Shown here: one piece after another, positions 22,652 to 23,218 of the stretch
Position numbering within the stretch: position 1 is the first letter of the stretch
How the letters are laid out: every line of letters begins with the position of its first letter
Assembly: GCF_019393635.1 (NCBI RefSeq)
Contig: NC_057867.1
Location: forward strand, 4,901,821 to 4,965,820
DNA from: Dromiciops gliroides
Lineage: Eukaryota > Chordata > Mammalia > Microbiotheria > Microbiotheriidae
Length of the DNA: 64,000 nt
Reading direction: 5' to 3'
The notes under the pieces: model-generated
What the model was told of the DNA's origin: nothing
Databases searched by the model: none
What the model saw: the letters and a program-made list of their open reading frames with translations, nothing else
Position numbers and translations under genes: made by a program

Positions 22652-23218
22652 TTATTTTAGTATAACTTTCAAGCACCCTGGTTTAATTTCAGAGAACCTG
22701 AAATTGTGGCTTGTAAGGTATTTAATGACTGCTGGTTTGATTCTAGCAACTCCTCCTTGACTATGCTTTCCTCTTCCCATAATCACAGAGAGATATGGTT
22801 TACCACCATTCTGTTTATGCTCTTCAGTTTTTTGTTGCAATAAAGTTATTAAATGATTTATGGCTTCATCTACATGGAGTCCATGGAGGTCCAAAATATT
22901 ATTTGGTAGTAGAGAAGCATTGACTTTCTCAAATATCTTCATAGCAGCAGGATGGTTGGCTTCCCTCATCTTCTCCTTGTGGAGACTACCCTGCTGTGCA
23001 TAAAATGTGGCAACATTTTTTTTCCCCATGCGATAAGCTTCTTTTGCCTTGTTATAGCATTCCAATCTCTTTTGCTGGTGAAGGAGAGCCTCTGCCCTAT
23101 AGTCATCATACTTAAAGGGTTTTGTGCTGACCTTTAGATGCCTGACCTGAAAGCACTGGTGCCAGAATGTTCTGTTTAGCTCTATTTTCCTCACACGAGT
23201 CAAAGACATAATTCTCAA
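22652..23218 (-). CDS. N4BP2-like DUF1771-Smr protein captured by the provirus
   Basis: An intact 188-codon frame. From about residue 36 it matches the C-terminal end of N4BP2, a cellular protein with an N-terminal kinase and a C-terminal Smr domain. Residues 38-100 are the DUF1771 helical region (YDDYRAEA ... FEKVN). Residues 107-188 are the Smr domain, with its 'LDLHGLHVDEA' motif at 109-119 and 'GRGKHSQGG' at 148-156. The frame ends in 'KPGCLKVILK', like the host C-terminus as I recall it. Smr domains bind nucleic acid and some have nicking or endonuclease activity. There is no intron and no poly(A) trace on its 3' side, which fits capture from mRNA by the virus. Residues 1-35 overlap the end of gag in another phase. 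Relative to gag the frame is shifted by +1, so fusion, frameshift or independent expression are all open. Confidence 0.8.
   Translation of the reverse strand: MRIMSLTRVRKIELNRTFWHQCFQVRHLKVSTKPFKYDDYRAEALLHQQKRLECYNKAKEAYRMGKKNVATFYAQQGSLHKEKMREANHPAAMKIFEKVNASLLPNNILDLHGLHVDEAINHLITLLQQKTEEHKQNGGKPYLSVIMGRGKHSQGGVARIKPAVIKYLTSHNFRFSEIKPGCLKVILK

Follow-up and report, generated by a model that had tools for sequence, protein, structure and literature searches.

A marsupial provirus with the spliced coding end of N4BP2 in place of nucleocapsid, pol and env, likely acquired by template switching

In the 64-kb window (the whole stretch of DNA that was analyzed), we found a 4.56 kb provirus, with its sense on the minus strand, in which the coding end of the host gene N4BP2 occupies the place of nucleocapsid, pol and env. 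The provirus is a broken, ancient marsupial retrovirus. We consider it very likely that its N4BP2 part was captured by template switching from a co-packaged, spliced N4BP2 mRNA, that is, by retroviral transduction or LTR-mediated retroposition. It is an anatomically clean candidate for this kind of capture in a marsupial.

The provirus is bounded by a 5' LTR of 503 bp (24476..24978, minus strand, TGTGATG...CATCATA) and a 3' LTR of 508 bp (20415..20922, minus strand, TGTGATG...CATCACA). The same four bases, GCCT, form the target-site duplication directly before TGTGATG on the 5' LTR side (24979..24982) and directly after CATCACA on the 3' LTR side (20411..20414). Over 503 aligned bases, with 2 gaps, the LTR pair differs by 12 transitions and 6 transversions (K2P 0.037). 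A few bases past the 5' LTR lies a probable primer-binding site that starts with TGG (24455..24472, minus strand, recognized by eye), and the polypurine tract AAAGGGGGGAA stands ahead of the 3' LTR (20923..20933, minus strand). Just ahead of this tract there is a 36-base inverted self-match (20933-20968, 83%), possibly a hairpin.

Gag is present as two pieces that share one frame and are separated by a single in-frame stop inside p30. The first piece (23607..24281, minus strand) consists of an N-terminal part without a family match followed by the start of p30 (Gag_p30, PF02093, residues 170-220, E 1.3e-6 in Pfam); the second (23112..23585, minus strand) holds the remainder of p30 (residues 5-104, E 4.6e-11) and reaches the junction with N4BP2. 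A 4-bp target duplication is typical of Class I ERVs, and together with the p30-type capsid it makes the element Class I-like (gammaretrovirus-type). The N-terminal part of gag gave no match to a matrix family (Pfam, E up to 10), and this end of the protein is either unusual for a p30-type virus or rearranged. Two strongly hydrophobic stretches were noticed by eye in gag before p30 (23607-24281, minus strand). Among 119 candidate proteins of roughly 330-1045 residues, no gag relative was found at E 1e-3.

As the earlier note had proposed, the N4BP2 frame lies on the gag strand between two LTRs, and the host sequence sits where nucleocapsid and polymerase belong. In detail, p30 lies upstream and runs straight into N4BP2, with one target duplication for the element overall. 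We saw no nucleocapsid, protease, reverse transcriptase, integrase or env in the element. A Pfam search of 15 downstream ORFs, chosen from 45 stop-to-stop ORFs on both strands, returned no retroviral family. The only Pfam matches of these ORFs were an MgtA leader peptide (E 0.98) and SieB (E 0.84), both far below their Pfam cut-offs, and remnants of env or pol between 20.9 and 22.65 kb were rejected on this selection of ORFs.

The frame that carries the host domains is an open frame of 188 codons on the minus strand (22652-23218), which begins with TTG, has its first ATG at codon 4 and ends at the N4BP2 stop codon TAA (22652..22654, minus strand); reading the plus strand from 22652 yields stops. 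DUF1771 matches residues 37-100 of this frame (66.6 bits, E 2.5e-18; Pfam curated cut-off 28.7 bits) and Smr residues 109-172 (31.6 bits, E 1.9e-7; cut-off 25.7 bits). All three PDB matches are to NEDD4-binding protein 2 (2vkc, 2d9i and 3fau; E 7.4e-59 and weaker). The intact DUF1771-Smr frame claimed from first reading is thus real and belongs to N4BP2, an identity on which the Pfam domains, the PDB matches and the alignments to marsupial N4BP2 agree. The claim does not hold for the beginning of the frame: its first 35 codons come from gag DNA in a different reading frame, and the alignment to N4BP2 is confined to the 153 codons between 23113 and the stop. The captured coding end therefore spans 22655..23113 (minus strand, intronless), from KYDDYRAEA... 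to the last residue, and includes both domains; its 5' edge at 23113 is certain to a few bases only.

The source of the insert was a spliced mRNA, judging from introns whose positions can be deduced from partial proteins of other species. A protein search with the insert gave 24 relatives among 65 candidates, and 17 of the 24 were examined. Several are short pieces that follow the common sequence and then depart from it, which seems to reflect an exon running into an intron: P0019, P0020 and P0023 depart after ...FYAQQ, and P0017, P0018, P0021 and P0022 after ...KTE or similar residues. Both departure points are passed unbroken in the window sequence, and the crossing of two inferred intron positions without introns indicates that the source was spliced, in keeping with the proposal made from the first reading. 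A splice border behind ...FYAQ agrees with an isoform from Macrotis in which the next 30 residues (41-70) are missing. The isoform takes up the sequence again behind ...LLP, which is also the end of P0016; we did not count a border at that place, as P0018, P0021 and P0022 read through it. A third border possibly lies near ...SHNF(R), where P0003, P0004 and P0010 all end.

The closest relatives that we saw are, by protein alignment, marsupial N4BP2 proteins. A second search, which scored only ~21 residues of the insert and is no census, returned 12 long proteins, all of them marsupial N4BP2, from 10 species. Over the 153 residues, 11 of the 12 are 90.8-92.8% identical to the insert; the remaining one, the shortened Macrotis isoform, reaches 75.2% with the gap counted. 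The comparison with marsupial proteomes suggested in the earlier note thus leads to marsupial N4BP2 as the source. At single positions the proteins group differently: asparagine at position 21 is common only to the window and to Macrotis and Sminthopsis (2 of the 12), whereas at position 97 Sminthopsis and Sarcophilus have aspartate and the window has glutamate.

The protein pieces also bear on the 5' junction. P0002 and P0020 part from the common sequence shortly before KKPKE, which implies that a host exon starts ~20 codons upstream of the junction. The junction would thus fall in mid-exon and not at a splice site, and its position inside an exon, supported through these pieces from other species, seems to us the better reading. 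Capture by read-through followed by splicing at an exon border was considered and rejected, as the last step only, because the junction seems to lie inside an exon; a read-through or splicing step before the final junction is possible.

On the other side of the insert, a T-rich stretch extends from the N4BP2 stop codon towards the 3' LTR (21175..22651, minus strand). It gave no retroviral Pfam match in the tested frames, and between 21500 and 22651 its GC content is 0.32 and its T content 0.38. The first part of the stretch is probably the 3' UTR of N4BP2. It is followed, ~240 bases ahead of the true polypurine tract, by a second stretch that resembles a polypurine tract and has an LTR-like start (21135..21174, minus strand), which aligns to the true tract and LTR start with a score of 34. 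This score was reached by 2 of 2000 shuffles and, among 327 overlapping windows taken across 20950-22650 (this place included), by 6; we take the six to be the windows that contain 21135-21174. Beyond these ~40 bases, likeness to the LTR was tried and is no better than chance (the score was reached in 189 of 500 shuffles), and the sequences upstream of the two purine tracts show no likeness to each other (422 of 500 shuffles reach the score). The LTR-like start means that the sequence would be viral again from there at the latest. Viral sequence thus probably resumes by 21135-21174, unless an old LTR was part of the host 3' UTR.

From this arrangement we infer the following course of events. 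A marsupial Class I-like retrovirus would have packaged spliced N4BP2 mRNA beside its own genome. Minus-strand synthesis would have started on the viral RNA at its 3' end, and reverse transcriptase would then have switched to the N4BP2 mRNA within the 3' UTR, continued through its last 153 codons and returned to the viral RNA at the end of p30. Such a product would keep the LTRs, the leader, gag as far as p30 and the polypurine tract, and would lose nucleocapsid, pol and env. Integrase supplied in trans would have inserted it, giving rise to the 4-bp target duplication.

A LINE-1-made processed pseudogene of N4BP2 that landed in an ordinary provirus, with pol and env lost later, would likewise be intronless and 5'-truncated, and it would share the orientation of the provirus by chance in one case out of two. 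Such a copy should carry its own target duplication and a poly(A) tail. Between the N4BP2 stop and the 3' LTR, however, no A-run exceeds 6 bases, so that no poly(A) is seen. When 56 bases about the 5' edge were compared with the downstream part for a target duplication belonging to the N4BP2 part, the best match was a 10-base word that spans the edge and recurs at 21843, as a LINE-1 origin would have it; a word of this length is near chance (10 bases were reached in 6% of 300 shuffles), and by eye 21843 is not directly preceded by an A-rich stretch. An insert with short duplications of its own keeps a small probability. A LINE-1 origin also requires a separate deletion of nucleocapsid, pol and env exactly beside the insert, and we regard it as improbable. 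Template switching can be extended, without conflict, to a replicating transducing lineage in which the gag-N4BP2 chimera was packaged and transmitted over several rounds with the aid of a helper, the provirus being one of several copies. The LTRs, the probable primer-binding site and the polypurine tract are kept, so that mobilization in trans may have been possible, and a slight excess of amino-acid replacements in the insert (quantified below) would fit error-prone replication before integration. This excess is marginal, however, and may stem from changes in the host's own N4BP2 or from LTR conversion. Further copies were sought in the window and in the viral_contigs collection: there is no second copy of the provirus within the 64-kb window, and in viral_contigs 5 stretches fitted a pattern by gag protein and 2 by N4BP2 protein, of which none was confirmed. 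One exact LTR word occurred 0 times in viral_contigs and 0 times in genome_contigs (a prokaryote collection, where little is expected). We hold the replicating lineage, as against a one-off chimeric product of reverse transcription, to be possible but doubtful.

The frame and the changes within it speak to whether the captured domain was ever used. N4BP2 is read in the +1 frame with respect to gag; neither read-through of a stop nor the usual -1 ribosomal frameshift can therefore join the two, and the latter, tried as a route from gag into N4BP2, is ruled out. At ten positions the insert has a residue found in none of the marsupial proteins that span the position (V10L, E46K, L55P, V58M, E59K, Q71N, V73I, V91L, T112M and N116K); 4 of the 10 positions fall in the stretch absent from the Macrotis isoform, where 9 species were compared. 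These replacements need at least 11 base changes, as Q71N needs two. The neutral expectation is 5.9 changes (half the LTR distance, 0.0184, times 320 effective non-synonymous sites), and the excess over it has P 0.04, or P 0.08 if 10 changes are counted; the count, made against marsupial N4BP2 proteins, may include changes of the host's own copy, and conversion between the LTRs would reduce their distance. An omega of 0.3 since integration is rejected (P 2.6e-6). Under neutrality the chance that no new stop arose since integration is ~0.75, so that an open frame does not speak for use. Given the little time since integration, an open frame with recognizable domains can persist unselected.

For residues of the Smr domain we used human numbers, set with a length of 1770 residues that we take to be that of human N4BP2; this puts the residues named here on the right letters. 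The TGxG motif, described as characteristic of family 2 Smr domains (the N4BP2/Cue2 type) in the part of PMC3200294 that was available, is TGRG in all 12 marsupial proteins and MGRG in the window, through T112M (human 1729). The LDxH motif, also taken from that source, is kept as LDLH (D1692), as are the DNA-contact residues given there (K1722, S1735, R1741, K1743 and R1756). In yeast, according to the accessible portion of PMC6598757, the Smr domain of Cue2 cleaves mRNA at collided ribosomes, and N4BP2 is its mammalian homolog. With this homology, the idea of a viral Smr domain is attractive; the N4BP2 insert gives no support for its use. A functional viral or domesticated Smr protein from this locus would be in line with the frame that is open to the native stop and with the retained LDxH and DNA-contact residues, but the shift out of frame with gag, the methionine in TGxG, the replacements at 10 otherwise constant positions, the rejection of omega 0.3 and the neutral expectation for the open frame all count against it, and we find such a protein extremely unlikely. 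The earlier suggestion that the Smr domain may have served in the particle or against host RNA or DNA thus finds no support in an insert that is out of frame, has an altered TGxG and changed at a neutral or faster rate. Most likely, as its sequence suggests, the N4BP2 part has drifted since integration as a pseudogene without protein function. It would be a highly speculative step further, and we give it very little chance, that a helper-spread marsupial transducing lineage carried the Smr end of N4BP2 (in mammals the relative of Cue2, a no-go-decay nuclease), that the provirus is a decayed member of this lineage and that the fragment possibly acted by dominant interference with ribosome-collision quality control.

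The kind of event is known. Acute transforming retroviruses of the gag-onc type are defective: their gag is fused to the coding end of a spliced host gene, and pol and env are lost. These traits are shared by the N4BP2 provirus. The host part of gag-onc viruses is usually in frame and yields a selected protein, whereas N4BP2 is out of frame here. LTR-mediated retroposition in metazoans was reportedly treated by Tan et al. in 2016. As described in the available part of PMC5408686, this process yields a chimera with a partial mRNA between LTRs, through template switching at short similarities, and the N4BP2 provirus resembles it in being a chimeric element with a partial mRNA between LTRs. According to the same part of that review, LINE1-linked copies dominate in mammals, while the N4BP2 provirus comes from a mammal and has a retroviral gag.

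Host genes inside ERVs have been described in crocodilians, where CrocERV31 holds a captured nectin3 and CrocERV29 a captured KIT-ligand (accessible part of PMC4299795). In both the CrocERVs and the N4BP2 provirus, host mRNA sequence lies inside an ERV; nectin3 was taken up at the expense of env, whereas the N4BP2 provirus lost nucleocapsid, pol and env and differs in its gene and its marsupial host. That source gives six insertions of nectin3 in one species and purifying selection on nectin3 and KIT-ligand, compared with one copy seen and no sign of selection for the N4BP2 insert. Among mammals, FAM8A1 was transduced by a human endogenous retrovirus (Jamain et al. 2001, as cited in the available part of PMC6987440); it is the one other mammalian ERV with a host gene copy that we met in the literature, and it shares this trait with the N4BP2 provirus while gene and virus differ. 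We found no case of N4BP2 or of an Smr domain as retroviral cargo in the open-licence PMC literature searched, mostly in the form of listings. In the available part of a survey of marsupial ERVs (PMC11334065), "host gene" and "captured" occur 0 times, and a paper found under N4BP2 and endogenous retrovirus concerns, in its accessible part, N4bp2l2 (PMC4859993). A paper that came up for Smr domains and retroviruses deals, by its abstract, with an HIV Nef peptide. The gene and the Smr cargo thus appear to be new, and the host group perhaps also.

Other features were observed elsewhere in the window. A reverse transcriptase fragment at 39856-40440 (minus strand; RVT_1, E 2.9e-32) is probably from a LINE, and a tRNA-Glu (TTC) gene or copy lies at 7900-7973 (minus strand, 63 bits in Rfam). 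The region 29700-31930 is very G+C-rich. It holds many imperfect repeats of trinucleotide type, and both strands have long frames made up of amino-acid runs; it looks like a CpG island with the first exon of a gene. At 18073-18876 there is a long, purine/pyrimidine-biased short repeat, with frames rich in K/E/R on one strand and in F/L/S on the opposite one. A repeat of 65-160 bases occurs in several copies between 15226 and 19109 (direct copies 76-85% alike, inverted arms 84-97% complementary) and is probably a dispersed SINE.
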